NCBI GenBank assembly: GCA_019347675.1 | Contig: JAHWKW010000003.1 | Location: 124,001-188,000 of the forward strand | Direction of reading: 5' to 3' | DNA from: Actinomycetota bacterium | Lineage (GTDB): Bacteria; Actinomycetota; Nitriliruptoria; Nitriliruptorales; JAHWKO01 | Length of the DNA stretch: 64,000 nt | Part shown: positions 9,124 through 24,330 of the stretch, in pieces | How the letters are laid out: every line of letters begins with the position of its first letter | Position numbering within the stretch: position 1 is the stretch's first letter | The notes under the pieces: model-generated | What the model was told of the DNA's origin: nothing | What the model saw: the letters and a program-made list of their open reading frames with translations, nothing else | Databases searched by the model: none | Program-made: the position numbers and the translations under genes

Positions 9124-9198
9124 GGAGGATCTCTCGTTCGGGGAGGGGGAAGAGGGCGACGGCCGCGTCGAACGCGAGCGCTTCACATCGCGGCTCAC

Positions 9199-9522
9199 GT
9201 GTCGGCAGCGCCGTGCCGATGGTGGAGCCCCAACCCCAGATGCGCTAACAAGAGTGCGCAGAGCGCATGCTGCAGTTAGCTCACCGGACGCTCACGTGCC
9301 CAACCGACCACGCGTTGGCGCCACGAGGTCACGGCGCCGTGATGCAGCACGTCGCCCTCCGCGCCAAAGACCTGGCCGGGCAGGACAGCCCGCGAGCCCG
9401 GCCGGACGACGCGGCACGTACCACACACCCGGTTCGCACCGTTGCCACGGGCGCAGCTACCGAACCCGACCAGGTTGGCCGATGCTGGTGGTGACGAGGC
9501 GACCGACCACGTAGGGCGTGAC
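9199..9522 (-). promoter_or_regulatory. long leader of the Rpf-like gene; possible c-di-AMP (ydaO-type) riboswitch remnant
   Basis: This 324-base gap holds no convincing gene. On the minus strand 9284-9271 reads GTGAGCTAACTGCA, followed by GCATGCG, close to the conserved CAGCTAACC-GTAGGCG 3' block of ydaO/yuaA riboswitches, which commonly precede rpf and NlpC/P60 genes in actinobacteria. A TGCGC/GCGCA stem follows. The 5' half of the motif could not be matched convincingly, so this is a lead rather than an identification. Confidence 0.25.
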
Positions 9523-9654
9523 ATGGCAGCGACGCAGTCCCATGAGCACCAGGCTCTGCTCGCCGTCAAGCTCGCGCTCGGGGTCGCCACCCCGCGCGAC
9601 ATCGAGCAGCTCCGCGAGCTGCACGCCGGCGACCACGACCAGCGGGCCGCCTGA
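9523..9654 (+). CDS. small hypothetical protein, 43 aa
   Basis: ATG at 9523 is preceded at a 6-base spacing by TAGGG, an acceptable SD. The 43-residue product contains ALLAVKLALGVATPRDIEQL and is hydrophilic apart from that amphipathic stretch; there is no signal peptide, Cys motif or recognisable family. It lies alone, with its 3' end facing the Nfu gene. It may be a genuine small protein or a chance ORF in GC-rich DNA. Confidence 0.35.
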   Translation: MAATQSHEHQALLAVKLALGVATPRDIEQLRELHAGDHDQRAA

Positions 9655-9747
9655 CCGCGTCGGGGGGGACCGGAGCGAAGACGGTCCTACGGGGTCGCAG
9701 GGCGGCCGGCTCACGCCGGCGGGCCGACGATCGACTGCTGCTTGCCG

Positions 9748-10389
9748 TTACTTCTTGGACGACTCGAAGTACGGGCTGTCCCCGGCGGCGTGGTCGGTGA
9801 CGTCCACGATGTTGCGGATCTCGGGGACGGCATCGCGGATCGCCACCTCGATCCCCTGGGTCAGCGTCACCTTGGCCATCCCGCAACCTTGGCACCCGCC
9901 CGACAGGCGTAGGTAGGCGGTGTCGTCCTCGACGCCGACAAGTTCGGCATGGCCGCCGTGCGCGGCGATGCTCGGGTTGACCACCCCTTCGAGGATCTGC
10001 GCCACGCGCTCCGCGAGCGGGCCGCTGAGGTCGCCGACCTGGCCACGCATCTGCGGGCTCTCGGGCTTGTTGGGGTTGGTGACGACCACGGCGCCGTAGA
10101 CGGGGTCACCTTCCACGGCGACCGTTGCGCCGCGGAGCTTGTCGACGTCGTCCTCGGGGATGACGATCGACAGGTCATCGTGGTGCTGCACGACGTCGCT
10201 GGGCTCGGCCAGCTCCAGCCGATCGATCCGGATCTCGTGGTCGTAGCCGCGTGGACCGAACCCGCTGACGGACACCCAGAGCGCCATCGCCTCGGGCTGG
10301 GGTTCCTGCGCCCGCACCCGCAGGATCTTCTCCTTGGCGTTGGGCGTGATCTGCACGATCGGTTCGGTTGTCATGGGACTGTCGGTCAT
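9748..10389 (-). CDS. nfuA: NfuA-type iron-sulfur cluster carrier (A-type-like plus NifU C-terminal domain)
   Basis: 213 residues. The N-terminal half (QITPNAKEKILRVRAQE) resembles a degenerate A-type/HesB domain without its cysteines. The C-terminal half is a NifU-like domain with VNPSIAAHGGHAELVGVE and the cluster-binding CxxC in GGCQGCGMAKVTL. NfuA-like proteins receive [4Fe-4S] clusters and pass them to targets. ATG 10389 is chosen over upstream codons because GGAGGG lies about 6 bases before it. It is divergent from the ATP-grasp gene, and the two share a 64-base promoter region. Confidence 0.88.
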   Translation of the reverse strand: MTDSPMTTEPIVQITPNAKEKILRVRAQEPQPEAMALWVSVSGFGPRGYDHEIRIDRLELAEPSDVVQHHDDLSIVIPEDDVDKLRGATVAVEGDPVYGAVVVTNPNKPESPQMRGQVGDLSGPLAERVAQILEGVVNPSIAAHGGHAELVGVEDDTAYLRLSGGCQGCGMAKVTLTQGIEVAIRDAVPEIRNIVDVTDHAAGDSPYFESSKK

Positions 10390-10441
10390 GGATGCCCTCC
10401 GCGCGGGCCGACATCGCCTGGGCGGGACCGCGCACGTCACG

Positions 10442-10447
10442 TACGGT
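10442..10447 (+). promoter_or_regulatory. candidate -10 box for a leaderless ATP-grasp mRNA
   Basis: TACGGT ends 6 bases before the GTG at 10454. The site sits in the near-palindrome GTACGGTACC, whose reverse strand offers TACCGT toward the divergent nfuA gene, so the two promoters may overlap. Confidence 0.45.
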
Positions 10448-10453
10448 ACCGCC

Positions 10454-11695
10454 GTGCGCCGCATCCTTCTGCTCCTGCCCTCGTCCACGTACCGCGCCGG
10501 GGATTTCCTCGATGCCGCCACGCGCCTGGGGGTCGAGGTGGTGATCGCATCGGAGGAGCGTCAGGCCATGGCCGATCGGATGGGCGATCGGGCGCTGAGG
10601 GTCGATCTGGGCGACCCTGACCGGGCGGCACGCGCGATCGTCACGCACGCACGCAGCAACCGGATCGACGCTGTCATCGCGGTCGACGACCAGGGGGTTG
10701 TGGCCGGAGCGCAGGCCGCCGCCGCGCTCGGGATCCCCCACAACCCGCCGGATGCGGTCGCCCGCACCCGGGACAAGGTCGCGCTGCGTCGCGCGCTGGC
10801 TGGGCGGGTGCGCCAGCCCGACTTCCGCGTCGCCGCATCAGGCGACGACGTCGCCGCGCTCGCCCGCACGGTGGGCCTTCCGTGCGTGGTCAAACCGGTG
10901 TCGTTGTCAGCCAGCCGCGGGGTGATCCGCGCCGACACCCCGGAGGATGCCGCGATCGCTGCGGCACGGATCCGGCGGCTGCTGGGATGCGCTGACGCCG
11001 ATGCAGAGGGTCCGTTGCTGGTCGAACGCTTCGTTCCCGGCCAGGAGGTGGCCGTCGAAGGGCTGCTGCGCGGCGGCCACCTCGAGGTGCTGGCGGTCTT
11101 CGACAAGCCTGACCCGCTCGACGGGCCCTACTTCGAGGAGACCCTGTACGTCACGCCGTCGAGCAAGCCAGCGGACGTCGTGGCCGAGATCGAGCGTGTC
11201 ACCGCCGACGCAATGACCGCGGTCGGCTTGCGCGAAGGCCCCGTCCACGCGGAGCTACGGGTCGGGCCGGACGGGGTCGCGACGTTCCTGGAGGTGGCCG
11301 CGCGTTCCATCGGTGGGCTGTGCGCCCGTGCGTTGCGGTTCGGGTTGGGCGTTCAGCTCGAGGAGCTGATCCTGCGTCACGCGCTCGATCTGCCGCTGGA
11401 CACGCTGCGACGTGAGCCGGACGCGTCCGGGGTGATGATGCTGCCCATCCCCCACGCGGGCGTGCTCCGGGCCGTCCAAGGCCAGGACGCTGCCCGTTCG
11501 GTCCCTGGCATCGTCGGCCTCGAGATCACCGTCCCGACCGGGCGTGCGGTGGCGCCGCTGCCGGAAGGCGACCGCTACCTGGGCTTCCTGTTCGCCCGTG
11601 GCCAGACTCCCGCGGACGTCGAGCGCTCGTTGCGCGAGGCGCACCGCCAGCTCGACGTGGTCATCGCCGCGCCGGCCGATCAACGCACCGCTTGA
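10454..11695 (+). CDS. ATP-grasp domain ligase
   Basis: 413 residues with a preATP-grasp Rossmann-like start (RRILLLLPSSTYRAGDFLDAA), then an ATP-grasp fold. Visible are CVVKPVSLSASRGVIR (ATP-binding Lys), LLVERFVPGQEVAVEG, HAELRVGPDGVATFLEVAARSIGG (the Mg-binding Glu/Asn-type region) and a C-terminal beta lobe. The layout resembles carboxylate-amine ligases of the BacD/L-amino-acid ligase or PurD/CarB group, which form an acyl-phosphate and couple it to an amine. The substrate cannot be read from sequence. GTG 10454 fits the leaderless promoter; an upstream in-frame start at 10334 would overlap nfuA. It may be co-transcribed with the EamA gene 15 bases downstream. Confidence 0.82.
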   Translation: MRRILLLLPSSTYRAGDFLDAATRLGVEVVIASEERQAMADRMGDRALRVDLGDPDRAARAIVTHARSNRIDAVIAVDDQGVVAGAQAAAALGIPHNPPDAVARTRDKVALRRALAGRVRQPDFRVAASGDDVAALARTVGLPCVVKPVSLSASRGVIRADTPEDAAIAAARIRRLLGCADADAEGPLLVERFVPGQEVAVEGLLRGGHLEVLAVFDKPDPLDGPYFEETLYVTPSSKPADVVAEIERVTADAMTAVGLREGPVHAELRVGPDGVATFLEVAARSIGGLCARALRFGLGVQLEELILRHALDLPLDTLRREPDASGVMMLPIPHAGVLRAVQGQDAARSVPGIVGLEITVPTGRAVAPLPEGDRYLGFLFARGQTPADVERSLREAHRQLDVVIAAPADQRTA

Positions 11696-11710
11696 CGGCG
11701 CCGCCGCGAC

Positions 11711-12739
11711 GTGAGCCTGACCCCGGATCCCGCCAGGGATCACCCGCCACCGGGGCGGCCGGGCCCGGCCCGGCGCCGGGTGCTGCAGACCGCGCACGGC
11801 ACCCGAGTCGAACCTTTCGGTGTGGTCGAGTGGGGGTTGCTCGCCGGGATCGCCGCGATCTGGGGCTCGTCGTTCCTGTTCATCGCCATCGGGCTCGAAG
11901 CGTTCGCCCCCGGGGTCGTGGCACTGGCTCGCCTCACCCTGGGGGTGGTCGCACTCGCGCTGGTCCCCCGTGCCAGGAGCAGCGTCCACCGCGACGACTG
12001 GCCGCGGGTCGCGGTGCTGGGGCTGGTGTGGATGGCCGCCCCGCTGCTGCTGTTCCCCATCGCCCAGCAGTGGGTCGACTCGTCGGTGGCCGGGATGATC
12101 AACGGGGCGGTGCCGCTGTGGAGCGCGCTGATCGCGACGCTGCTGCTGCGGTCCCTGCCCCGACCGACCCAGGTCGTCGGCCTCGCGCTGGGGTTCATCG
12201 GCGTGGTGGCGATCATGTGGCCCAACGCGTCGGGGGCGGACGCGTCACTGCTGGGCGTGGCGCTGCTGCTGGTCGCGGTGGCGCTGTACGGCCTGGCCAC
12301 CAACCTCGCCGTCCCGCTGCAGCAACGCTACGGCAGCGCTCCCGTGCTGCTCCGCGCCCAGCTCGTGGCGCTGGTGGTGATCGCCCCGGTGGGTGCCGCG
12401 TCGGTGCCGACCTCGACCTGGGAGTGGACCAGCGCCGTGGCCATGCTTCCCCTGGGGGTGCTGGGCACGGGTCTGGCGTTCGTGGGGATGACCACCCTGG
12501 TGGGGCGGGTGGGTGCAGCACGCGGGTCGGTGGCGATCTACTTCATCCCCGTCGTCGCGATCGTGCTGGGCGTGACGGTGCGCGGCGAGGCGGTCCACCC
12601 GCTGGCGCTGGTCGGGACGGCGCTGGTCCTGGTCGGGGCGGGGCTGACCAGCCGTCGCGAACGCGAACGTCGTCGAACCGACGTCGGGTCGACGGTTGCG
12701 GTGGGCGCCGACGTCCCGACCGACGTCAACCACCCGTGA
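11711..12739 (+). CDS. EamA-family (DMT superfamily) transporter
   Basis: 342 residues with about ten membrane helices in two EamA repeats. WGSSFLFIAIGLEAFAPGVV opens the first repeat, and GTGLAFVGMTTLVGRVGAARG lies in the second, followed by a cytoplasmic Arg-rich tail. The family exports small metabolites such as amino acids or takes up related compounds. Its position 15 bases after an ATP-grasp ligase suggests export of the ligase product, which is inference. Its last 14 bases overlap the convergent glgA gene. Confidence 0.88.
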   Translation: MSLTPDPARDHPPPGRPGPARRRVLQTAHGTRVEPFGVVEWGLLAGIAAIWGSSFLFIAIGLEAFAPGVVALARLTLGVVALALVPRARSSVHRDDWPRVAVLGLVWMAAPLLLFPIAQQWVDSSVAGMINGAVPLWSALIATLLLRSLPRPTQVVGLALGFIGVVAIMWPNASGADASLLGVALLLVAVALYGLATNLAVPLQQRYGSAPVLLRAQLVALVVIAPVGAASVPTSTWEWTSAVAMLPLGVLGTGLAFVGMTTLVGRVGAARGSVAIYFIPVVAIVLGVTVRGEAVHPLALVGTALVLVGAGLTSRRERERRRTDVGSTVAVGADVPTDVNHP

Positions 12740-13922
12740 GGCGCTGGTAGAGGTCGGCCGTCCGCTCGGCGACCACGTCCCACGTGAAGCGGTCCAGCAC
12801 CCGTCGGCGGCCTGCTCGACCCATGCGGGCGGCGCGGGAGGGGTCGGCCAGGAGCTCGTCGATGCGGGTGGCCAGGTCCCGGGCGAACCGCTCGGCGTCG
12901 GCTGGCTCCGACGTGGGGTCACCGGGCTCGAACGGGACCAGCAGGCCGGTGTCGCCCTCGACCACGATCTCGGGGATCCCGCCGGTTGCGGTCGCCACGA
13001 CCGGGGCTCCACACGCCATCGCCTCGAGGTTGACCAGCCCGAACGGTTCGTACACCGATGGGCAGACGAACACCGTGGCGTGGGACAGCACCGCGACGAC
13101 GTCGGCGCGGGGCAGCATCGCCTCCTCCCACACGACCCCGCCCCGCCCCGCACGGAGCCGTTCGACCCGAGCGCGGACCTCGGCCGCGATCTCAGGCGTG
13201 TCGGGCTCGCCGGCCAACAGCACCAGCTGCGCGGGGTGCACGAGGAGCTCGACAGCGCGGAGCAGGTGCGGCAGGCCCTTCTGGCGGGTGATGCGGCCGA
13301 CGAACACCACCGACGGCTGGTCGGGGTCAATGCCCAGACGGCGTAGCACGTGGCGGTCGGGTGCGGGCCGGTACACGTCCGGGTCGACGCCGTTGTGGAT
13401 CACCTGGACCCGGTCGGGAGCGATCTGCGGGTAACAGGCGACCACGTCGGCGCGCATGCCCTCGGACACCGCGATCACCGCGTCGGCATCCTCCAGCCCG
13501 GTGCGTTCGCAGAAGCTGGACAGCGCGTAGCCGCCGCCGAGCTGCTCGGCCTTCCACGGGCGCAACGGCTCGAGGCTGTGGACGGTCGCCACGTGCGGGA
13601 CCTCGTAGAGCAGCTTGGCCAGGTGCCCGGCGAAGTTCGCGTACCAGGTGTGGGTGTGGACCAGGTCGGCGCCGGCCACGCCGGCGGCCATCACCAGATC
13701 CACCGACATGGTGCGCAGGGCGGCCAGGTGGCGTGCGTCGCCCTCCAACTCCTCCCACGGCTGGTACGCCGCGGCCACCAGCGGGTCGCTTCGGGGGGGC
13801 CCGAAGCAGTGCACCGCGACGTCGACGTGCTGGGCAAGTGCGGTGGCGAGGTGCTCGACGTGCACGCCGGCGCCGCCGTACACCTCCGGCGGGTACTCGC
13901 GGGTGACGATCGCGGCCTTCAC
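12726..13922 (-). CDS. glgA: glycogen synthase, actinobacterial GT4 type
   Basis: 398 residues. [20 protein letters not shown] is the N-terminal sugar-acceptor/ADP-glucose motif of the corynebacterial-type Glg[20 protein letters not shown] and [20 protein letters not shown] (the E-x7-E region) identify a GT-B retaining GT4 enzyme. It extends alpha-1,4-glucan, or makes maltose-1-phosphate as GlgM, from ADP-glucose. The GTG start overlaps the glgC stop by four bases, so the two are translationally coupled and consecutive in glycogen synthesis. Confidence 0.92.
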
Positions 13923-15172
13923 GGGCAGACGGCGCCCGCCGCTGCAGGCACGCGCTGCCCCTTGCCGATCACCACGACGCCGCCGTCGGAGACGGTGAAG
14001 CGCTCGCGGTCGAGGTCCGGGTCCACCCCGATGCGGGCACCTTCTGCGATGACCACGTTCTTGTCGACGATGGCGTTGCGGACGACGGCGTTGCGGCCGA
14101 CCACGACGTCCTGCATCAGCACGGACCCTTCCACCTGGGCGTGCGACTCCACCAACACCCCCGGGGACAGCACCGACCGCCGCACCGTCCCGCCCGAGAC
14201 GATCACACCGCCGCTGACCATCGAGTTGAGCGCCTGTCCCCGGCGCCCGTCGTCGTCGAAGATGAACTTGGTGGGCGGGAGCGACCCCGGCCAGGTGTGG
14301 ATCGGCCAGTCGCGGTTGTACAGGTTGAAGATCGGGTGCACCGAGACGAGGTCCATGTGTGCCGCGTAGTAGGCGTCGAGGGTCCCCACGTCCCGCCAGT
14401 AGCCGCGGTCACGCTCGGTGGCTCCCGGCACGTCGTTGCTGGCGAAGTCGTACACGTGCGCCTGATCTGCTGCGGTCAGCATGGTGATGACGTCGCGGCC
14501 CACATCGTGGTCGCTGTCCTCACGCTGGGCATCGCGGGTCACCGCATCGACCAGCACCTCGGTGGCGAACACGTAGTTGCCCATCGAGGCGAACACCTGG
14601 TCGGGTGCGTCCGGCAGGCCCTGCGCGGTGGACGGCTTCTCGTGGAAGGCCGCCAGCCTGGTGCCCTCCCCCGGCTGCACCACCCCGAACCGGGACGCCT
14701 CCTCGCGCGGGGCGCGGATCGCAGCGACCGTCACCCCCGCCCCGGTGGCGACGTGCTGCTCGACCATCTGGCGCGGGTCCATCCGGTAGACGTGGTCGGC
14801 GCTGAACACGATCACGTGATCGGGACGCTCGTCGCGAACGATGTTGAGGTTCTGGTAGATCGCGTCCGCCGACCCGGCGAACCACCGCGCACCGTGGCGC
14901 ATCTGCGCGGGCACCGGCGTGACGTAGTTGCCCAGCAGCGGTGACAGCCGCCAGGTGGTGGAGATGTGCCGATCGAGGCTGTGGCTCTTGTACTGGGTCA
15001 ACACGACCAGGCGCAGGTAGCCGCCGTTGACGAGGTTCGACAGGGCGAAGTCGACCAACCGGTAGGTCCCGGCGAAGGGCACGGCCGGCTTGGCCCGGTC
15101 GGCCGTGAGCGGCATCAGCCGCTTGCCCGCCCCGCCGGCGAGCACGATCCCGATCACGTGGCGGTCGGCCAC
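13919..15172 (-). CDS. glgC: glucose-1-phosphate adenylyltransferase
   Basis: 417 residues, normal for Glg[21 protein letters not shown] is the nucleotidyltransferase loop, followed by [19 protein letters not shown]. Other markers are [18 protein letters not shown] (catalytic Asp region), FHEKPS and a C-terminal left-handed beta-helix with hexapeptide repeats. It makes ADP-glucose from glucose-1-phosphate and ATP, the committed step of glycogen synthesis, and is usually allosterically controlled. GTG 15172 is chosen because a GGAGGAG SD lies just upstream and homologues begin at this motif. It forms an operon with DUF2203 and glgA. Confidence 0.94.
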
Positions 15173-15182
15173 GAGCTCCTCC

Positions 15183-15557
15183 TCACAATAGGCGCAGTTC
15201 CGCGATCGGCGCGCGGCCCAGGAAGCCGGTCTCAGCCGTGTGGTACCAGGCGAGGTCGTCCTCACCCTCCAACCAGCACAGCAGCACCATGCCCTGGACC
15301 GCCCGGGCCGGGAAGTCCAGGAGCGCCGGGGCGATGCCTTTGACCTGCACGCCGTGCTCGGCGAACCACGCCAGCTCCTCGTGGACACGGGCGTCCAAGG
15401 CCTTCAGCTCCGGCACCCCGCCAGCAGCCGGACGGTCGTCGCGCAGCGCCCGCTCGAGCTGGCGAGCCTCGGCCGTGAGAGCCGCCACCGTCCTGATCCG
15501 CGCCCGCGCCTCGGGCAGGACAGCCCGGGCTTCTTCGAGGGTGAAGGTCCGCTCCAT
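15183..15557 (-). CDS. DUF2203 family protein
   Basis: 124 residues, the usual size for DUF2203. It starts [20 protein letters not shown], continues as an alpha-helical region, and ends with [27 protein letters not shown] and TGFLGRAPI, all typical of the family. No biochemical role is established. It is the first gene of the DUF2203-glgC-glgA operon (10 bases before glgC). The ATG at 15557 matches the family start. Confidence 0.85.
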
Positions 15558-15752
15558 GCGGGCCAGTATGGCCGGTCCGTGTTGCGGCGGCAGCGGCCGC
15601 GAGGAGACGGCAAGGCCGCCCCCTCGCGGTCCCCCCGTTGGCTGCGACGTCGCAGATAGCGCCCCGCGGAGCGTGCGGTAGACCGTACAACCGGCCAGTC
15701 CAGCGAACCATGTCTCGACGGCCGGCCGTTCGTCGGCGTCACCGGGGATGGT

Positions 15753-15758
15753 TAGCCT
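15753..15758 (+). promoter_or_regulatory. candidate -10 box for a leaderless radical SAM mRNA
   Basis: TAGCCT ends 7 bases before GTG 15766. This supports GTG 15766 over the in-frame ATG at 15748, which lies upstream of the -10 box. Confidence 0.45.
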
Positions 15759-15765
15759 CGGTGGC

Positions 15766-17184
15766 GTGCGTGTCCTGATCGTGTCCACCTACGAGCTCGG
15801 TCACCAGCCGCTGCACGCGGCGGTCCCTGCCGCGGTCCTCCGCGACGCTGGCCACGAGGTCCGCTGCCTCGATCTGTCCGTCCAGCGGTGGGACCCGGCC
15901 CTGATCGATTGGGCCGGTGCGGTCTGCTTCTCGACCCCGATGCACACCGCGATGCGTCTGGCCGTGACCGCGGCCACCGTCATTCGTCGCGAGCGCCCCA
16001 CCCTCCCGATCTGCTTCTACGGTCTGTACGCCCCGGTGAGCCGTGACCACACCGTCGGTCGCGTCACCGACCGGGTGATCGCCGGCGACTACGTCGGGGC
16101 GCTAGTCGCGTGGGTCGCAGACCTCGCTGGCGACGTCGACGTGGCAGACCCTGTGACCATCCAGCTCGGCCGCGGCCGGGTGAAGCCACCGCTGCCTGCC
16201 CGCGACCTCCTTCCGCCGCTCGACTCCTACGCCCATCTCGCGTTCGGCGGCCACGAACGCCGGGTCGGGGCGGTCCAGGCGACCGTGGGTTGCAAGCACC
16301 GGTGCCGGCACTGTCCCGTCCCGACCGTCTACGGCGGACGCTTCCGGGCGGTGGACACCGCCGCCGTCCTGGACGACATCGCCCAGCTGGTCGAACTCGG
16401 CGCCGGGCACATCACGTTCGCCGACCCCGACTTCCTCAACGGCCCCACCCACGCGCTCCGCGTGGTGCGCGCCATGCACGAGCGTTGGCCGCAGCTCACC
16501 TTCGACTGCACCACCAAGGTCGACCACATCGTCGAGCACCCGCAAGCGTGGCCGGTGCTGGCGCAGTCGGGCTGCCTGTTCGTCGTGTCGGCCCTGGAGA
16601 CGACCAACGACACGATCCTCGCCCGGCTCGACAAGGGCCACACCACCGCCCAGGCGCGTCAGGCGATCGCGTTGCTGCGCTCGTACGGGATCGAACTGCG
16701 GCCCTCCTGGCTGCCGTTCACGCCGTGGACGACGCTGGGAGACGTCCACGACGTCGTGACGTTCGTCGCCGACCACGACCTGGTCGGCAACGTCGACCCG
16801 GTCATGTACACGATCCGGCTCCTGCTCCCGCAAGGGTCGCTGCTCGTCGACCATCCCGACCTCGCCCCGCACCTGGGCGACTACGACGCCGAGAGGCTGA
16901 CGTACCGGTGGACCGCCGCGGATCCGCAGGTCGATGCGCTGCAGGCCGAACTCGCACAGCTGGTGGCCGAGCGCACCGCCCACGGGGCGAGCGCCGAGCG
17001 GATCTTCCTCGACGTCGACGCGGCCGTGTCGGCAGCCGCGGGGGTCACCGCCGGGCGCCCGCAGATCCTCACCGGCTCGGTGCAGGGGCGCCCCAGGTTG
17101 ACCGAGCCGTGGTTCTGCTGAGCGGAGCCCACCGAGCAGATGGCCGGTCCGGTCATCGCCGATGCGACACCCGATCGGAGCTGA
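15766..17184 (+). CDS. B12-binding-type radical SAM selenoprotein with C-U-A-E-P tail (TGA 17119-17121 read as Sec)
   Basis: About 472 residues if the TGA at 17119 encodes selenocysteine, 451 if it is a stop. The N-terminus (RVLIVSTYELGHQPLHAAVP) is a cobalamin-binding-like Rossmann domain. The radical SAM cluster motif CKHRCRHC lies near residue 181, followed by a TIM-barrel core. The end reads LTEPWFC, then TGA, then GCG GAG CCC (A-E-P), and continues 20 sense codons to TGA at 17182. This fits the radical SAM family recognised by a C-terminal CUAEP or CCAEP tail. A hairpin at 17131-17148 (arms ACCG-GC and GC-CGGT, a bulged A, loop AGATG) sits where a bacterial SECIS should be. Its reaction is unknown. 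selA, selB and selC are not in the window. Confidence 0.82.
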
Positions 17185-17209
17185 ACGCCACGTCGTCGTT
17201 GGCCGTGGC

Positions 17210-18070
17210 CTACACGCGGTCCAGGACCGCGACGACGTCGTCGGGGAGATCCACGGAGGCTGCGGCGACGTTCTCCTCGAGATGCTCCAGCGACGAGGTC
17301 CCCGGGATCGGCAGCATCACGGGAGAACGGGCCAGCAGCCACGCCAACGCCACCTGCGCGGGCGTGATGGCGTCGCGGGCAGCCAACCCCGCCAGGGGGC
17401 CGTCGTCGCTGGCCAGCTGGGCTGAACCCAGCGGGAAGTACGGGATGAAAGCCAGACCCTGTTCTGTGCAGGCCTCGAGCACGTCCTCGTGCTGGCGGGC
17501 AGCGAGGTTGTAGCGGTTCTGCACCGACACCACGTCGACGATCCTCCGGGCGGCTGCCAGCTGGTCGGCAGCCACGTTGGACAGCCCGACGTGGCGGACC
17601 TTCCCGGCGTCCTGGAGGTTCTTCAGCGCCCCGACGGACTCTTCGTACGGCACGGCGGGGTCGGGCGCGTGCAGCTGGTAGACGTCGATCGCCTCGACGC
17701 GTAGCCGTTGCAGGCTCCCGTCGCAGGCGGCCTTGAGGTGGTCGGGGCGGGCGTTGCGCGGCCACTGTCCGGGCCCGGGGCGCTCCAGCCCACCCTTGGT
17801 GGCGATGATGAGGTCGTCGGGGTAGGGGTGCAGCGCCTGGGCGATCAACGTCTCGTTGACGTGGGGGCCGTACGAGTCGGCCGTGTCGATGAAGTTGACA
17901 CCGAGCTCGACCGCTCGGCGCAGCACCGCCCGGGCGGCGTCGACGTCGTCGGGCTCTCCCCACACCCCCGGGCCGGTGAGGCGCATCGCCCCGAACCCCA
18001 GTCGGCGCACCTCGAGGTCGCCGAGGACCACCGTGCCGGCGGTCGTGTCGTCCAGGGTGGCCACGCTCAT
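17210..18070 (-). CDS. aldo/keto reductase
   Basis: 286 residues. It has GFGAMRLTG, NFIDTADSYG (catalytic Asp and Tyr), IIATKGG (catalytic Lys), YQLHAPDP (His), GLSNVAA, and VALAWLLARSPVMLPIPGTS at the cofactor-binding end. This is an NADPH-dependent AKR of the YajO/AKR11-13 type acting on aldehydes or ketones, substrate unknown. ATG 18070 is chosen because a TAGCGT -10 box at 18099-18104 overlaps the alternative GTG at 18100. It is convergent with the selenoprotein gene 25 bases away. Confidence 0.9.
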   Translation of the reverse strand: MSVATLDDTTAGTVVLGDLEVRRLGFGAMRLTGPGVWGEPDDVDAARAVLRRAVELGVNFIDTADSYGPHVNETLIAQALHPYPDDLIIATKGGLERPGPGQWPRNARPDHLKAACDGSLQRLRVEAIDVYQLHAPDPAVPYEESVGALKNLQDAGKVRHVGLSNVAADQLAAARRIVDVVSVQNRYNLAARQHEDVLEACTEQGLAFIPYFPLGSAQLASDDGPLAGLAARDAITPAQVALAWLLARSPVMLPIPGTSSLEHLEENVAAASVDLPDDVVAVLDRV

Positions 18071-18098
18071 CGGCGATCCCGTTCGTCGATCCCGGGTC

Positions 18099-18104
18099 AC
18101 GCTA
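18099..18104 (-). promoter_or_regulatory. candidate -10 box for the aldo/keto reductase gene
   Basis: TAGCGT on the minus strand predicts a start near 18092 and a leader of about 22 bases before ATG 18070. Confidence 0.35.
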
Positions 18105-18292
18105 CGGTCGCGGCCGCCCGTCCCGCAGGACGCACTCGTCCACCCGTCCGCCCCGTCCGACCGGCACGCCCGCGCCTGCGGCCGGCGACGGCCACCCGCG
18201 GCTCGTCCCAGCTTCGGTGTCCGGATGCGCCGGCCAGGCGCGCAGGCGTGGTTTCATGGCTTGCTCCTCGCAGGCCACCCACGGAGGGGCGC

Positions 18293-19189
18293 ATGCGGGT
18301 CAGGCACCTGCGGCTGTCCTACCCGCTGGATCTGGCGGGCACGCTCGCGCCGCTGCGCACGGGAGCGGCGGACCCCACCGTCCGGCTCGCCCGCCGGGAG
18401 GCGTGGCGGGCGGTGCGGACTCCCGACGGTGCAGGGACCCTTCACCTGGCGTCCATGCCTCCCACGGTGGTCGCCACGGCCTGGGGTCCCGGCGCCGCGT
18501 GGCTCCTCGACACCGCCCCGGACGTGCTCGGCGCGGGCGACCACCCGGAGGGCTTCCGCCCCACCCACCCGCTGCTGGAGCGCCTGCACCGCCGCCACCG
18601 CGGTTTGCGGCTGTGCCGCTCCCGCTGCGTGGTCGATGCGCTGCAGCGTGCGGTGGTCGAGCAGAAGGTCACGTCGGTCGAGGCCAAGCGGGCGTGGGGA
18701 CGGATCGTGGTCGGGTTCGGGGAGCCGGCACCGGGACCCGGTGGTCTGCTGCTCCCGCCGGCCCCGGACGTGCTGGCCCAACAGCCCTACTTCCGCTTCC
18801 ACCCGCTGGGGTTGGAGCGCCGCCGGGCCGAGACGCTGCGTCGCGTCTGCGTTCACGCCGCCCGGCTCGAAGACGTTTCGACGCTGGACCCCGGCGAGGC
18901 GACCCGCCGGCTGTTGGCCGTGAACGGGGTCGGCCCCTGGACCGCGGCGCTGGTCGTTCGGACCGCGCTCGGCGACGCCGATGCCGTGGAGGTCGGTGAC
19001 TACCACATCCCCAACCTGGTGGCGTGGAACCTGGCCGGCGAGCCACGTGCCGACGACGCACGGATGCTCGAGCTGCTCGAGCCCTACCGCGGCCACCGCG
19101 GCCGGGCCGTGCGCCTGCTGTGCCTCAGCGGGCGGTGGGCACCCCGGTTCGGGCCCCGCCAGCCCCTGCGCCGGCTCGAGGCGATCTGA
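18293..19189 (+). CDS. HhH-GPD DNA glycosylase (AlkA-like)
   Basis: 298 residues. The N-terminal AlkA-like domain is followed by the HhH-GPD fold with AVVEQKVTSVEAKRAWGR, the hairpin LLAVNGVGPWTAALVV and the catalytic Asp region VEVGDYHIPN. There is no C-terminal Cys cluster. It excises alkylated or damaged bases such as 3-methyladenine from DNA. The ATG at 18293 follows GGAGGGG at good spacing. The open frame extends far upstream, but that part overlaps the divergent reductase and lacks domain sense. Confidence 0.87.
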   Translation: MRVRHLRLSYPLDLAGTLAPLRTGAADPTVRLARREAWRAVRTPDGAGTLHLASMPPTVVATAWGPGAAWLLDTAPDVLGAGDHPEGFRPTHPLLERLHRRHRGLRLCRSRCVVDALQRAVVEQKVTSVEAKRAWGRIVVGFGEPAPGPGGLLLPPAPDVLAQQPYFRFHPLGLERRRAETLRRVCVHAARLEDVSTLDPGEATRRLLAVNGVGPWTAALVVRTALGDADAVEVGDYHIPNLVAWNLAGEPRADDARMLELLEPYRGHRGRAVRLLCLSGRWAPRFGPRQPLRRLEAI

Positions 19190-19192
19190 GCC

Positions 19193-19301
19193 GCGTCGCC
19201 GGCATCGGGGGCGGCGAGCCCCGGCACGCTGCCTGCGCCAGCGTCGCCGGCAACGGGGGCGGCGAGCCCCGGCACGCTGCCTGCGCCAGCGTCGCCGGCC
19301 A
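19193..19301. repeat. tandem 48-bp repeats (two full, one partial) with GGGGC/GCCCC hairpins
   Basis: Units begin at 19193, 19241 and 19289 (partial, about 13 bases). Each full copy contains GGGGC-GGCGA-GCCCC, a five-pair GC hairpin. They fill the gap between the DNA glycosylase stop and the cobS stop, so they may act as a bidirectional terminator for the long cobalamin operon. No T-tract is present. Confidence 0.8.
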
Positions 19302-19322
19302 GGAGTCTCCGCTGACGAGTGG

Positions 19323-20051
19323 TCACAGTGCTGCCACCAGCACGGCGAGGGCGACGAGCTCGGCGACGATCCCGGCGAGACCCACGGCATCGCCACAGGC
19401 GAAACCGTACCTGTGCCGCCACCACGCGGCGAGCGCCACCGCGGTGGTCACCGCGGTCGCCGCGGCCACGCCGCCCACGATCACCGCACGGGTCAGCGGG
19501 ACGCCCGCTGCGCGCGCCGCCGCCGCGGCGATCACCGTGGCCGACCCGACCGCGACCCACCGCACCGTCGCGGTCGCGGTCGGTGCCAGGTCGCTGCTCA
19601 GCGATCCGGCTGCGGCGGGCAGCCGCCCCAGCGTCCACACCATCGCGAGCCGCCCGGCGGTGGGGACCGCGACCAGCGCGACCGGCACGGTCGTTGCCAG
19701 GAGCGCGAACCGGGCCAGCAGCACGGTGCCGACGCCGGCGGCGCCGACCGCCCCCACCCGCGGATCGCGGATCACGTCGCGGGCGGCGTCGCCGCGCCGA
19801 CCCGATGCCCACGCGTCGGTGACGTCCCCGACGGCATCCAGGTGCAGCCCCCCGGTCACGATCAGGTCGGCCACCAGCACCGCCGCGGCGCCCACTGCCG
19901 CCCCGCCCAGCCCCCGTCCCGCCACGGCCGCCGCCCACCAGGCCAGGCCGACCACGGCTCCCGCGGCGGGGAACGCCGCCAGCGTCCGGCGGCCGGGACC
20001 GACCGCGCCCCGCACCGGCAGGACGGTCAGGAACGCCAGCGCGGCCCTCAC
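19323..20051 (-). CDS. cobS: adenosylcobinamide-GDP ribazoletransferase (cobalamin synthase)
   Basis: 242 residues, a polytopic membrane protein. Family motifs are LTVLPVRG near the start, GGLHLDAVGDVTDAW (the Asp-rich active site) and RDPRVGAVG. It joins alpha-ribazole to adenosylcobinamide-GDP at the membrane, the last step of adenosylcobalamin assembly. It is the final gene of the operon. Its GTG start overlaps the stop of a 16-codon mini-ORF rather than cobT directly (see 20048-20099). Confidence 0.93.
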   Translation of the reverse strand: MRAALAFLTVLPVRGAVGPGRRTLAAFPAAGAVVGLAWWAAAVAGRGLGGAAVGAAAVLVADLIVTGGLHLDAVGDVTDAWASGRRGDAARDVIRDPRVGAVGAAGVGTVLLARFALLATTVPVALVAVPTAGRLAMVWTLGRLPAAAGSLSSDLAPTATATVRWVAVGSATVIAAAAARAAGVPLTRAVIVGGVAAATAVTTAVALAAWWRHRYGFACGDAVGLAGIVAELVALAVLVAAL

Positions 20052-20099
20052 AGGGCCACGTCCTGTGGTTGGCTGAGGAGCGCCAGCGCGGCCCTCACG
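20048..20099 (-). CDS. 16-codon linking mini-ORF, a duplicated cobS initiation region
   Basis: GTG at 20099 overlaps the cobT stop, and its TGA at 20048-20050 overlaps the cobS GTG. Its first 18 bases repeat the first 18 bases of cobS exactly, 48 bases apart. It encodes RAALALLSQPQDVAL after the start. It probably arose by tandem duplication of the cobS start and preserves coupling as a GTGA-mini-ORF-GTGA relay. A function for the peptide is not expected. Confidence 0.5.
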
Positions 20100-21156
20100 C
20101 GAGCTGGTCCTGCAGCTCGGCGAGGGTCGCGACGTCGTGCAGCAGCCGGGCGGCGGACTGCACCAGCGGGACCGCCAGCAGCGCCCCCGTCCCCTCCCCC
20201 AGCCGCATCCCCAGGTCCAGGAGCGGGACCAGATCCAGGTGCGCCAGCCCGATCGCGGCGCCGGGCTCGACCGAGCGGTGACCGGCGACGACGTAGTCGG
20301 CCACCGCCGGGTTGAGCGCGACCGCCACCAGCGCGGCGCCGACGGTGGAGATCCCGTCCAGGATCACGGGGACGGCCTCGGCCGCCGCGGTGAGCACCAC
20401 CCCGACGAGGGCGGCGTGCTCGAGACCGCCCAGCGACGCCAGGACAGCCAGCGGGTCGCGGTCGTCGCCGTGGCGCTCCAGAGCGCCGCGGACAACCGCC
20501 TGCTTGCGCGCCAGCGTCGCCGCGTCGATGCCCGATCCGCGGCCGGTGACCTGCTCGGGGTCGGAGCCGGTGAGCGCGGCGACCAGACACGCCGCCGGGG
20601 TGGTGTTGGCGATGCCCATGTCGCCGGTGAGCAGCAGGTCCGCCCCGGCGGCGAGCAGCTCCTCGGCCACCCCTGCCCCGGCCAGGACCGCCCGGGCCGC
20701 GTCGTCGCAGCTCATGGCCGGGCCGTCGAGCAGGTCGGCGGTGCCGTCACGGACGCGGGCGGCGCGGAGCAGAGGATGGGAGGCGACCGGCCCCGCCACG
20801 CCCACGTCCAGGACGGTGACGCGTGCCCCGATCGTCGCCGCCAGGGCGTTCGCGGCGGCTCTGCCCTGGCAGAACGCCGCGACCATCTGGCGGGTCACGT
20901 CCCGCGGCCAGGGCGTCACACCCTGGGCGTGCACGCCGTGGTCGCCGACGGCGATGACCAGGGCGGGGTCGGTGGGTACCGGCGGGGGGCAGGCCCCGGC
21001 GATCGCAGCGAGCTGGCCGCCGAGGCGCTCGAGGTCGCCCAGGCTCCCGGGGGGTTTGGCCAGCGCGGCGTGGCGCGCGCCGGCGGCCTGCCCCGCGGCC
21101 GGGTCGCCGGCGCGGGCCTCGGCGGCGAGCTCGCGGACCCGGTCGGTCACCGTCAC
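20095..21156 (-). CDS. cobT: nicotinate-nucleotide:dimethylbenzimidazole phosphoribosyltransferase
   Basis: 353 residues, standard CobT length. Markers are LAKPPGSLGDLERLGGQLA at the N-terminus, AVGDHGVHAQGVTPWP, LLLTGDMGIANTTPA, VTGRGSGID, and EGTGALLAVPLVQSA near the end (catalytic Glu region). It makes alpha-ribazole-phosphate from DMB and nicotinate mononucleotide. The GTG at 21156 overlaps the upstream stop as GTGA. No bluB or DMB synthesis gene is visible, so the lower base source is outside this window. Confidence 0.94.
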   Translation of the reverse strand: MTVTDRVRELAAEARAGDPAAGQAAGARHAALAKPPGSLGDLERLGGQLAAIAGACPPPVPTDPALVIAVGDHGVHAQGVTPWPRDVTRQMVAAFCQGRAAANALAATIGARVTVLDVGVAGPVASHPLLRAARVRDGTADLLDGPAMSCDDAARAVLAGAGVAEELLAAGADLLLTGDMGIANTTPAACLVAALTGSDPEQVTGRGSGIDAATLARKQAVVRGALERHGDDRDPLAVLASLGGLEHAALVGVVLTAAAEAVPVILDGISTVGAALVAVALNPAVADYVVAGHRSVEPGAAIGLAHLDLVPLLDLGMRLGEGTGALLAVPLVQSAARLLHDVATLAELQDQLA

Positions 21157-22859
21157 GAGCGGCTGGCTGACGGGCGGGCGGCCACCGCGTCGCTCAGCGC
21201 GGTGACCAGCCGATCGGTCGTGGCGCGGTCCCGCACGGCGATGCGGACATGGTCGGGGCCCAGACCCGGGAAGGTGTCGCCGCGGCGGACCGCCAGGCCC
21301 CGGTCGAGGAGGCGCCGGCGCAGGTCGGGGTGGCCGGGGGCGTGCACCAGGACGAAGTTGGCGGCCGAGGGCCACACGGTCAGGCCGGGCACCGACCGCA
21401 GGGCAGCGAGCAGGTGGTCGCGTTCTGCGGCCACGGCGCGGGCGCGTCCGCGGCGGTGCTCGTCCGCCTCGACGCAGGCCACGACCGCCTCCAGCGCGAG
21501 GGCGTTCACCGGCCAGGGCTGGCGGTGGGCGGCCAGCTGCGCCACCAACTCCGCATCGGCGACCAGGTACCCGACGCGGAGCCCGGCCAGGCCCCACAGC
21601 TTGGTCAGGCTGCGCACCGCCACGACGCCGGGCAGGTCACGACGGTCGGCGACCCCGGCGGCGTCGTCGAGCAGCTCGGCGAAGGCCTCGTCGACCACCA
21701 GGATCCGCCCCGGCCGGGCCAGCGCCTCGACCGTCGCGACCGGATCCACCACGCCGGTGGGGTTGTCGGGGCGGCCCACCACCACCAGGTCGGCGTCGGC
21801 CGGGACGGTGGCCGGGTCCAGCGCCCAGCCCGCGGCCGGGTCGCGCTGGACCCGGACCACCGGGTGGCCGCAGGCGCGGAGTGCCGCCTCGGGTTCGGTG
21901 AACGACGGGTGGACGCAGGCGGCGAGCCGAGGGCGGAGAGCCGCCGCCAGGAGCCAGATCGCCTCGGCGGCGCCGTCCAGCACCAGGCACTCCTCGAGTG
22001 GGCGGTGGTGGCGTGCCGCGGCGGCGGCGCGGGCTTGCGTGTCGTCGGGATAGGCGTCGGCGCGGTCCAGGGCGGCTTCCAGGCGGTCGCGGAGCCAGCG
22101 GGGCGGGCCGGGCACCACGTTCACGGCCAGGTCGACCGTCCCGGCCGGGACCTGCCGGTCGCCGTGCTCGCGCAAGCGCCCCGCCATGTCGTCCGGTGGT
22201 GGGCGCCGCCCCGCCACCACCACGCCGCGATCAGCCTCCCGTTGCATCACGGCGCCCGGCGGGCCGCTGCGGGTCGGTGGGTCGAGCGCGGCGGGCAGGC
22301 GGTCGGCGACCTCCACGGCCCGCCCGGCGACGGCAAGGACTACACGGTCGGCGCCGGCCGACAGCCGCTGCCCCGCGTCGCCGTGCAGGTCGAGGTAGCG
22401 GCGGGTCGCGGCGTCGGTGGGTGTGGGGCCCCAGCCGGGCTGGCCGGCGACGACCAGGGTGGTGCCGGGGCGCGCGCCGGCCGTGTCCCAGAAGCCGGTG
22501 AGCTCGGCGAGGACCGTGTCGCGGGCCGCTCGTCCCGCGGCGCCCAGCGGGGCGACCGCCGCTTCCGTCCACAGCCCCGCCTCCCCCATCCGTCGCGTCA
22601 GCCAGGTGTCGAGCGCGTCGACCAGGACGGTGTCGTCGGGCGCGCTCGACATGACGGCGGCGGCCAGGTCGGCGGTCTCGAGCGTCGTCCACCCGGCGGG
22701 GCGCCGCCGGCGGTGCGCGGCGATCCGCTCGGCCATCTCGGCGTCGGTGACCAACCCTGGGGTGATCACCACGACCGGGTGGCCGGTGGCGGCCGCGAGC
22801 CGCTCGGCGACAGCGCTCTTGCCGGAGCGGGTCGGCCCGATGACCAGGATCCGGGTCAC
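21153..22859 (-). CDS. fusion of CobU (cobinamide kinase/guanylyltransferase) and CobC/CobD-type PLP decarboxylase
   Basis: 568 residues in two parts. Residues 1-190 are CobU-like: P-loop GPTRSGKSAVAERLA, then TDAEMAERIAAHRRRRPAGW and LVDALDTWLTRR. It phosphorylates and GMP-activates adenosylcobinamide. Residues about 195-568 are a class-I/II aminotransferase fold of the histidinol-phosphate aminotransferase/threonine-phosphate decarboxylase type: VVGRPDNPTGVV, VVDEAFAEL, and the PLP Lys in VRSLTKLWGLAGLRVGY. That half would make the aminopropanol-phosphate linker used by CbiB. The fusion pairs two late assembly steps. Start and stop overlap both neighbours by four bases. The pairing could also reflect CobC from another amine pathway, but the context argues against that. 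Confidence 0.88.
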   Translation of the reverse strand: MTRILVIGPTRSGKSAVAERLAAATGHPVVVITPGLVTDAEMAERIAAHRRRRPAGWTTLETADLAAAVMSSAPDDTVLVDALDTWLTRRMGEAGLWTEAAVAPLGAAGRAARDTVLAELTGFWDTAGARPGTTLVVAGQPGWGPTPTDAATRRYLDLHGDAGQRLSAGADRVVLAVAGRAVEVADRLPAALDPPTRSGPPGAVMQREADRGVVVAGRRPPPDDMAGRLREHGDRQVPAGTVDLAVNVVPGPPRWLRDRLEAALDRADAYPDDTQARAAAAARHHRPLEECLVLDGAAEAIWLLAAALRPRLAACVHPSFTEPEAALRACGHPVVRVQRDPAAGWALDPATVPADADLVVVGRPDNPTGVVDPVATVEALARPGRILVVDEAFAELLDDAAGVADRRDLPGVVAVRSLTKLWGLAGLRVGYLVADAELVAQLAAHRQPWPVNALALEAVVACVEADEHRRGRARAVAAERDHLLAALRSVPGLTVWPSAANFVLVHAPGHPDLRRRLLDRGLAVRRGDTFPGLGPDHVRIAVRDRATTDRLVTALSDAVAARPSASRS

Positions 22860-23740
22860 CGCGGTGGCCGGTGGACGTGGGTGGCGGGGTCGTGGGGGTG
22901 GACGTGCATGGTCTGTGGAGCGCCGACCGCGTGCTCGAAGCCGGGCAGGGCCACCCGGTGGATGCAGCGGTCGCAGGTGGCGTGCGCCTCCCCGGCGTGC
23001 GCCTCGTCATGGCGTTCCACGACGAGCCGGACGACACGCTGGTCGACCCCCAGATGGCCGGCGACGACCACGGTGACGTCAGGGTGTCGGGCGGCCCAGC
23101 GGCGGGCCTGGTCACCGATGCGTCGTATCAGCACCCCGGTGAACAGGAAGTAGGGCACCACCGCCACCCGGCGGGCACCCAGCCGGTGGCAGCGGTCGAG
23201 TCCGGCCTCGACCGTCGGCGCGGTGATCCCCGCGAACGCCGTCTCGACCAGCGGCCAGGGCCGTCCCTCCCACAGCAGCCTCCCCACCTTGGCGAGGTCG
23301 GAGTTGGCGTCCGGGTCGCTGGAGCCGCGCCCGACGACGAGCACGGCGGTGTCGGCGCGTTCGGCGGGCGCCACGGCGGCGGCGAGACGGTCGTCGACGA
23401 TCGTCAACAGGTCCGGGTGGACTCCCAGAGGGGTGGCGTACCGGAAGGCGACGTCGGGGTGCAACGAACGTTGGCGCGTGATCGCGGCGGGCACGTCGGT
23501 CTTGGCGTGCCCGGCGCCGAGCAGGACCAGCGGCACGACCGTGATGTGCGTGGCGCCGGCCGCGGCCAGGGCAGCCGCGGCGTCGTGGATCGGTGGTGGG
23601 GACAGCTCGATGAAACCCAGGGCCGTGGGCAGCCCGGGGCGGACCTCCTCGACGGCCGCGATCAGCTCCGCGCACTCGGCGACCCCGGCCGGGTCACGTG
23701 AACCGTGCCCGGCGATCAGCAGCGCGTCGCGGCGGGTCAC
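22856..23740 (-). CDS. cbiX: sirohydrochlorin cobaltochelatase (CbiX, long form)
   Basis: 294 residues, two tandem chelatase-like halves. LLIAGHGSRDPAGVAE carries the catalytic His, PTALGFIELSPPPIHDA is the family core, and VVPLVLLGAGHAKTDVP contains the second metal His. The second half has LVVGRGSSDPDANSDL. The C-terminus has a CDRC pair and a His-rich tail (HVHPHDPATHVH), probably for metal loading or a cluster as in some CbiX. It inserts cobalt into sirohydrochlorin early in the anaerobic route. GTG 23740 overlaps the cobH stop; longer N-terminal frames are out-of-frame noise. Confidence 0.9.
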   Translation of the reverse strand: MTRRDALLIAGHGSRDPAGVAECAELIAAVEEVRPGLPTALGFIELSPPPIHDAAAALAAAGATHITVVPLVLLGAGHAKTDVPAAITRQRSLHPDVAFRYATPLGVHPDLLTIVDDRLAAAVAPAERADTAVLVVGRGSSDPDANSDLAKVGRLLWEGRPWPLVETAFAGITAPTVEAGLDRCHRLGARRVAVVPYFLFTGVLIRRIGDQARRWAARHPDVTVVVAGHLGVDQRVVRLVVERHDEAHAGEAHATCDRCIHRVALPGFEHAVGAPQTMHVHPHDPATHVHRPPR

Positions 23741-24330
23741 GGCAGTGGCCTGGCGTGCATCAGCGCGTGGACCGCGGCGGCAGCGGCTGCGGACCCGCCC
23801 TTGACGCTGCGGTTGGTCACGGCCGCAAGGCCGCTGACCCGCAACGCGGCCTTCGCCTCGACCGCGCCGACGAACCCCACCGGCAGGCCCACCACGAAGG
23901 CCGGGTCGGCACCGACCTGGAGCAGCTGGGTGAGCGCGGTCGGGGCGCAGCCGATCACCCACACCGCCCCGGGGCCGACCCGCTCGGCAGCGACGCGGAT
24001 CGCCGCGGCGCTCCGGGTGGAACCGGTGCGCTCCGCGAGGTCGACGGTCTCGGGCGCCGCGATGAACGTCGACGCGCGCCGGGCGGTGATCCCCGCGGCG
24101 ACCATCGCGACGTCCGCGACGAGCGGGGCGCCGGCGTGCAGCGCCGCCGCGCCTGCGGCCAGCTGCGCCTCGTCGACGACGAGGTCGGTGGCGTAGCCCA
24201 CGTCGGCCGTGGCGTGCACCACGCGTTCCACGACCGCGCGGCTGAACCACGGCAGGTCTTCCAGGTCGAGCATCGTGCGCAGGATGCGGTAGCTCTCCTG
24301 CTCGATCGGGTGGACCTGCCGGCCGCTCAC
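23737..24330 (-). CDS. cobH: precorrin-8X / cobalt-precorrin-8 methylmutase
   Basis: 197 residues. HPIEQESYRILR contains the start of the family signature, followed by VVERVVHATADVGY (with the catalytic His region) and VGLPVGFVGAVEAKAAL near the end. It moves the C11 methyl to C12 to give hydrogenobyrinate or cobyrinate. GTG 24330 overlaps the ferredoxin stop; another GTG at 24336 is possible and would add two residues. Confidence 0.93.
   Translation of the reverse strand: MSGRQVHPIEQESYRILRTMLDLEDLPWFSRAVVERVVHATADVGYATDLVVDEAQLAAGAAALHAGAPLVADVAMVAAGITARRASTFIAAPETVDLAERTGSTRSAAAIRVAAERVGPGAVWVIGCAPTALTQLLQVGADPAFVVGLPVGFVGAVEAKAALRVSGLAAVTNRSVKGGSAAAAAAVHALMHARPLP

Follow-up and report, generated by a model that had tools for sequence, protein, structure and literature searches.

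A radical SAM gene with a very probable selenocysteine codon and its coupling to L-amino-acid-ligase-type and Nfu-like genes

We conclude with high confidence that the window (the whole 64,000-nt stretch of DNA analysed) carries a full-length radical SAM selenoprotein of the NCBIfam family NF040546, named "CUAEP/CCAEP-tail radical SAM (seleno)protein" (rSAM_CUAEP), and that this family is coupled to partner genes encoding an L-amino-acid-ligase-type ATP-grasp enzyme and an Nfu-like protein. Judged from sequence comparison, the in-frame UGA of the gene very probably specifies selenocysteine. The features discussed below are located in Table 1.

Table 1. Coordinates of the radical SAM selenoprotein gene, its elements and its partner genes in the window
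Feature	Position	Strand	Remarks
Nfu-like protein	9748..10389	-	NifU C-terminal domain; weak A-type-carrier-like N-terminal match; conserved NF040546 partner
ATP-grasp protein, L-amino-acid-ligase type	10454..11695	+	ATP-grasp_4 and LAL_C2; conserved NF040546 partner
Radical SAM selenoprotein gene, NF040546	15748..17184	+	Start ATG 15748, or GTG 15766 from comparison with relatives (MRVLL...)
In-frame UGA, selenocysteine reading	17119..17121	+	Residue 458 from ATG 15748, 452 from GTG 15766; Cys in Cys-form homologues
Read-through tail and true stop	17122..17184	+	Tail AEPTEQMAGPVIADATPDRS, then TGA 17182-17184; A-E-P conserved, remainder not
Hairpin of the sequence-only reading	17131..17148	+	Loop AGATG 17138-17142; one bulged A; weaker
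Most likely SECIS hairpin	17139..17157	+	8-bp stem GAUGGCCG/CGGUCAUC; apical GUC 17147-17149

The in-frame UGA and the C-U-A-E-P tail

A single TGA interrupts the otherwise open frame of the gene, which reads ...RPRLTEPWF-C(TGC)-TGA-GCG-GAG-CCC (i.e., C-U-A-E-P) around this codon and continues for exactly 20 codons before the true stop, as the sequence-only reading had described. That reading also regarded the CUAEP/CCAEP tail as the marker of a genuine radical SAM family, and the protein indeed scored 552 bits against NF040546 with read-through and 533 bits without it (curated cutoff, 500 bits), covering profile positions 1 to 465 of 468. Whole-protein score, C-[U/C]-A-E-P tail and CX3CX2C motif all assign it to the family. 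The radical SAM cluster motif GCxxxCxxC occurs as GCKHRCRHC (Cys176, Cys180 and Cys183, numbered from GTG 15766), Pfam Radical_SAM matched with 52.1 bits (cutoff, 29.5), and the AlphaFold2 model of the protein reached a pLDDT of 92.9 and a pTM of 0.92. Since read-through adds to the family score and the E-P dipeptide is invariant in the alignments, C-U-A-E-P is not a chance reading. The neighbours of the gene are glgA/glgC and a DUF2203 gene in one direction and an aldo/keto reductase gene in the other.

Selenocysteine in this tail is strongly supported by the family score, by alignment with cysteine and by the decoding machinery of the genome. In a 24-sequence alignment, the UGA falls on a Cys of the CCAEP forms, the residue for which the earlier reading had suggested looking; four motif residues (Cys, Cys/Sec, Glu and Pro) do not vary in this alignment or in one of 49 sequences. 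The two tail states occurred among the 78 readable tails of 80 related genome contigs, and UGA occupies exactly the same codon in 45 other members from many phyla, with conserved sense codons beyond it. In a tree of 103 rows, the nearest rows to the window protein are Sec forms, and parsimony requires at least 16 Sec/Cys switches, or at least 5 when only well-supported branches are counted.

Absence of sel genes, or homologues ending without A-E-P, had been named as grounds for rejecting selenocysteine; all four of selA, selB, selC and selD are present in the genome, and the homologues continue with A-E-P. selC was identified with 77 bits (ARAGORN tRNA-SeC, UCA anticodon), selA and selB are adjacent in an operon, and each of two selD genes has its own in-frame UGA in the motif GAG-U-ACKL. 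These selD genes are different (G000:C43:1054-1977, L066; G000:C37:15553-16485, L067) with near-identical hairpins, and are either paralogues or include one copy from a contaminant. Among 25 genomes with a scorable tail, selA was found in 16 of the 17 Sec-form genomes (2 of these matches being partial and below the model cutoff) versus 1 of the 8 Cys-form genomes (Fisher p = 1e-4); the lone Sec-form genome devoid of selA is 78% complete. SelB, together with Sec-tRNA(UCA), would decode the UGA with the aid of the hairpin at 17139-17157, and the resulting protein would end in a C-terminal tail with a vicinal Cys-Sec pair.

The expectation that automatic annotation truncates such proteins is supported by the homologue on the megaplasmid of Thermomicrobium roseum DSM 5159 (L152 from 9935; TRD_RS12835; WP_012643191.1). 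RefSeq cuts it at the same UGA, leaving an end at ...TESWFC, where the TGA is followed by GCGGAGCCG (A-E-P). WP_012643191.1 is therefore probably a truncated selenoprotein in a cultured thermophile.

The hairpin downstream of the UGA

The sequence-only reading had placed the SECIS element in the hairpin with the AGATG loop. This structure can be drawn but, as a SECIS candidate, is weaker than the hairpin at 17139-17157 (-6.0 versus -9.9 kcal/mol). The two are mutually exclusive, and the minimum-energy fold of 17119-17160 includes the latter, which is likely the SECIS element. It combines G-U in the apical loop, 8 bp and a GUC loop 25 nt past the UGA, and can equally be drawn with a 7-bp stem and the loop GGUCC, as in the closest homologue (L054). 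The loop starts 24 to 25 nt after the UGA versus approximately 19 nt in the other aligned Sec forms of NF040546, a spacing 5 nt longer that is due to an apparent insertion (CAGAT, 17137-17141) relative to L054 in this single draft assembly. Specifically, GAG (17134-17136) is followed by CAGAT and then GGCCGGTCCGG in the window, whereas GGCCGGTCCGG comes directly after GAG in L054. The insertion puts the tail after A-E-P-T-E in a different frame from that of L054. Beyond that point the two genes therefore have the hairpin in common but not the peptide, which points to the RNA as what counts in this stretch.

Stems of at least 7 pairs with a G-U-type loop followed the codon in 33 of 45 Sec forms and in none of 53 Cys forms. 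Only 0.26% of the shuffles of the window sequence passed this 7-bp G-U rule, and 0.04% reached 8 pairs. The 7-bp stem (columns 16-22/28-34) was paired in 91% of cells across 42 distinct Sec-form sequences, with two-sided changes at five of its seven pairs. Its covariation score of 0.523 was higher than those of all 500 shuffles (mean, 0.233) and of all slid registers. Similar hairpins occur in the two selD genes of this genome, where each UGA precedes an 8-bp stem (loop GUA in one, GUC in the other), and in T. roseum a 6-bp stem with a GUC loop comes after the UGA. The hairpin alone proves little because, of 130 other TGA-ended open frames in the window (200 or more codons each, not all of them genes), 8 are followed by equally strong ones that pass the 7-bp rule. 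An Rfam scan of 9000-24000 at the gathering score yielded no match.

Two other explanations of the UGA were weighed against selenocysteine. It could be an ordinary stop, with the protein ending at ...EPWFC and the downstream A-E-P being the relic of a read-through ancestor; the truncated protein still scores above the NF040546 cutoff, and the distance from the UGA to the SECIS hairpin is unusual within NF040546. However, the family-wide invariance of E-P, the Sec machinery of the genome, the Sec forms as nearest tree relatives and the recurrence of UGA in those 45 members, with conserved sense codons beyond it, make an ordinary stop very improbable. Even more remote is a sequencing or assembly artefact, in which a real Cys codon was misread or the 5 extra nt are spurious: the genome is a single draft assembly of 76 contigs (96.7% complete, 2.6% contaminated) and the insertion is unique to it, but UGA at this codon is normal in the nearest homologues (L054 and L059) and a spurious insertion would affect nothing but the poorly conserved residues past A-E-P-T-E.

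Partner genes and Fe-S assembly regions

The Nfu-like and ATP-grasp genes form a divergent pair approximately 4 to 6 kb upstream of the radical SAM gene, from which they are separated by unrelated genes. Both recur with NF040546, as PF01106 (SUF/Nfu) and PF18603 (L-amino-acid-ligase ATP-grasp) partners: a ligase homologue lies near the NF040546 gene in 47 of 79 loci, an Nfu-like gene in 49 and a DUF169 gene in 17, with an order of ligase, Nfu and radical SAM genes that varies between phyla. In a phylum-wide sample (about 394 genomes), the ligase was found in 25 of 26 NF040546-positive genomes and in 10 family-negative ones (p = 2e-30; the family and ligase samples, of 397 and 394 genomes, are nearly but not exactly identical). 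This coupling does not reflect proximity only, since it extends to genomes where the ligase and NF040546 genes lie at distant positions. We propose that the radical SAM enzyme acts in the same pathway as the L-amino-acid-ligase-like ATP-grasp enzyme and the Nfu-like protein, the latter as an Fe-S carrier.

Beside or near five Cys-form genes (L098, L112, L119, L122 and L125), we also found a cysteine-rich protein weakly similar to DUF3109 (CIFGNGCQG...GCCSYG; e.g., L112:11440-12231). A contig labelled as a Bifidobacterium breve MAG (L099; CAMDSG010000207.1) carries a member almost identical to that of an unrelated actinobacterial genome (G075) and is probably misbinned.

Outside Actinomycetota, the radical SAM gene lies within suf operons in three lineages, i.e., Ignavibacteriales (L130: sufB, SufC-like ABC protein, sufD, sufS, SufT-like gene, erpA, radical SAM, nfu), Bacteroidetes (L140: SufD-like, SufS-like, sufU, SufT-like, A-type carrier, radical SAM, nfu) and Planctomycetota (L132: sufB ... 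sufT, radical SAM with UGA, nfu, DUF169, ligase), of which L130 and L140 are sister tree rows and hence not independent. In Nitrospinae (L131), the gene adjoins genes for an A-type carrier and an Rrf2-type regulator, and in Poribacteria (L150) NifU_N-like and A-type-like genes. SUF and Fe-S families were the commonest Pfam matches among 80 neighbour frames of non-actinobacterial loci; in 114 neighbour frames of the remaining loci, the top families were simply ABC transporters and alpha/beta hydrolases, with no arsenic family among those listed.

In the open literature searched, we found no paper naming the NF040546 family, which may have been mentioned earlier in other selenoprotein papers, and no description of its link with ligase, Nfu and suf genes; a search for the accession in the main text of a prokaryotic selenoprotein inventory from 2026 gave no match. 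The family already has a name in NCBIfam, whereas its coupling to the ligase, the Nfu-like protein and suf genes is new as far as this literature goes.

Comparison with ArsL and candidate chemistry

The nearest characterised relative of the window protein is ArsL (NF040542), the RCCLKC-tail radical SAM enzyme of arsinothricin biosynthesis (PMC8552651), for which PMC12159101 cites in vitro work. Identity is approximately 32 to 33% over some 410 aa, and the window protein scored 265.7 bits against the ArsL model, where 450 are needed. The tails differ, being CUAEP in the window protein and RCCLKC in ArsL. Two annotated RCCLKC-tail (ArsL-family) proteins share 46 of the 69 near-invariant NF040546 columns, including the Cys-Cys/Sec pair, although the short aligned tail makes the match of the Cys pair weak evidence by itself. 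A role of the RCCLKC tail is unproven in ArsL itself, because only three conserved cysteines were counted among its orthologues (PMC8552651). The ATP-grasp proteins of ArsL plasmid clusters in Alicyclobacillus and Priestia (L153, 2442-3674; L154, 2659-3882) matched the profile of the NF040546-partner ligase with 140 and 105 bits, with LAL_C2 just below its cutoff. Both clusters also encode a GTP-binding protein (CobW-type in Alicyclobacillus) and possibly make an arsinothricin-containing peptide.

Like its sister ArsL, the enzyme may, by homology, cleave SAM to a 3-amino-3-carboxypropyl radical, which would be transferred to a soft atom (S, Se, As or metal-bound sulfide) held on the Cys-Sec tail. 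The product would be an unusual amino acid, to which the ligase partner would join a second amino acid. We put forward this ArsL-like group transfer tentatively, as an analogy that could well fail. Slightly more doubtful is the wider proposal that the radical SAM enzyme, the L-amino-acid-ligase ATP-grasp protein and the Nfu-like protein, often with DUF169, constitute an undescribed pathway of many phyla, in which the Cys-Sec or Cys-Cys tail would serve to make an unusual amino acid or dipeptide for Fe-S assembly or protection.

Alternatively, the Cys-Sec tail could be a redox or cluster-ligand device (a selenenylsulfide relay, or a ligand of an auxiliary Fe-S or metal site) of an enzyme that modifies an Fe-S assembly component and makes no amino acid. 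The Nfu-like genes in 49 of 79 loci and the location of the gene inside the suf operons of Ignavibacteriales, Bacteroidetes and a Planctomycetota contig are consistent with such a device, but the L-amino-acid-ligase-type partner indicates a small-molecule product and ArsL makes an amino acid; we regard this alternative as slightly less likely than the ArsL-like transfer.

The earlier reading had suggested an enzyme using both selenocysteine and B12, and its B12 part found no support. A cobalamin-dependent radical SAM methylase is suggested by the B12-binding-like N-terminal domain and by the fold neighbours MgmA, OxsB and TsrM, which bind B12. However, the B12-binding Pfam match (26.3 bits) is below its cutoff (32.1), and the best solved fold match is AprD4, ahead of MgmA, OxsB and TsrM (Foldseek E, 1e-18 to 1e-13; TM, about 0.5 to 0.7). 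All four resemble the window protein in overall fold and differ from it in their partners, with 12 to 18% identity; none of them is known to have a Cys-Sec tail. B12 synthesis genes (CobS-, CobT- and CobU/CobC-like) are located at 19323-22859, approximately 2 kb downstream of the radical SAM gene. We rejected this operon (about 19.3 to 22.9 kb) as part of the system, with cob genes recurring in 1 of about 79 loci; CobT/CobC-like genes occur near the NF040546 member of a Chloroflexi locus (L144). With its linkage to cob genes not conserved, a cobalamin methylase is improbable.

Equally improbable is an arsenic enzyme making an arsinothricin-like amino acid as ArsL does, a special case of the ArsL-like transfer. 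The sister relationship to ArsL, the alignment of the Cys-Cys pair with RCCLKC and the related ATP-grasp proteins in both settings would fit such an activity. ArsL loci, however, carry arsM, arsN1, arsR or ACR3 genes, whereas NF040546 loci show SUF/Nfu linkage instead, and arsenic gene families were absent from the commonest families among 194 neighbour frames of NF040546 loci.

The window gene is a clear example of a selenoprotein shortened by automatic annotation. It belongs to a named family without a described function in the open literature searched, and raises the question of why a selenocysteine-tailed radical SAM enzyme should be encoded in Fe-S assembly regions. The ligase, which tracks NF040546 almost one to one, together with the Nfu-like protein and the suf operons, provides a concrete and testable handle on that function.
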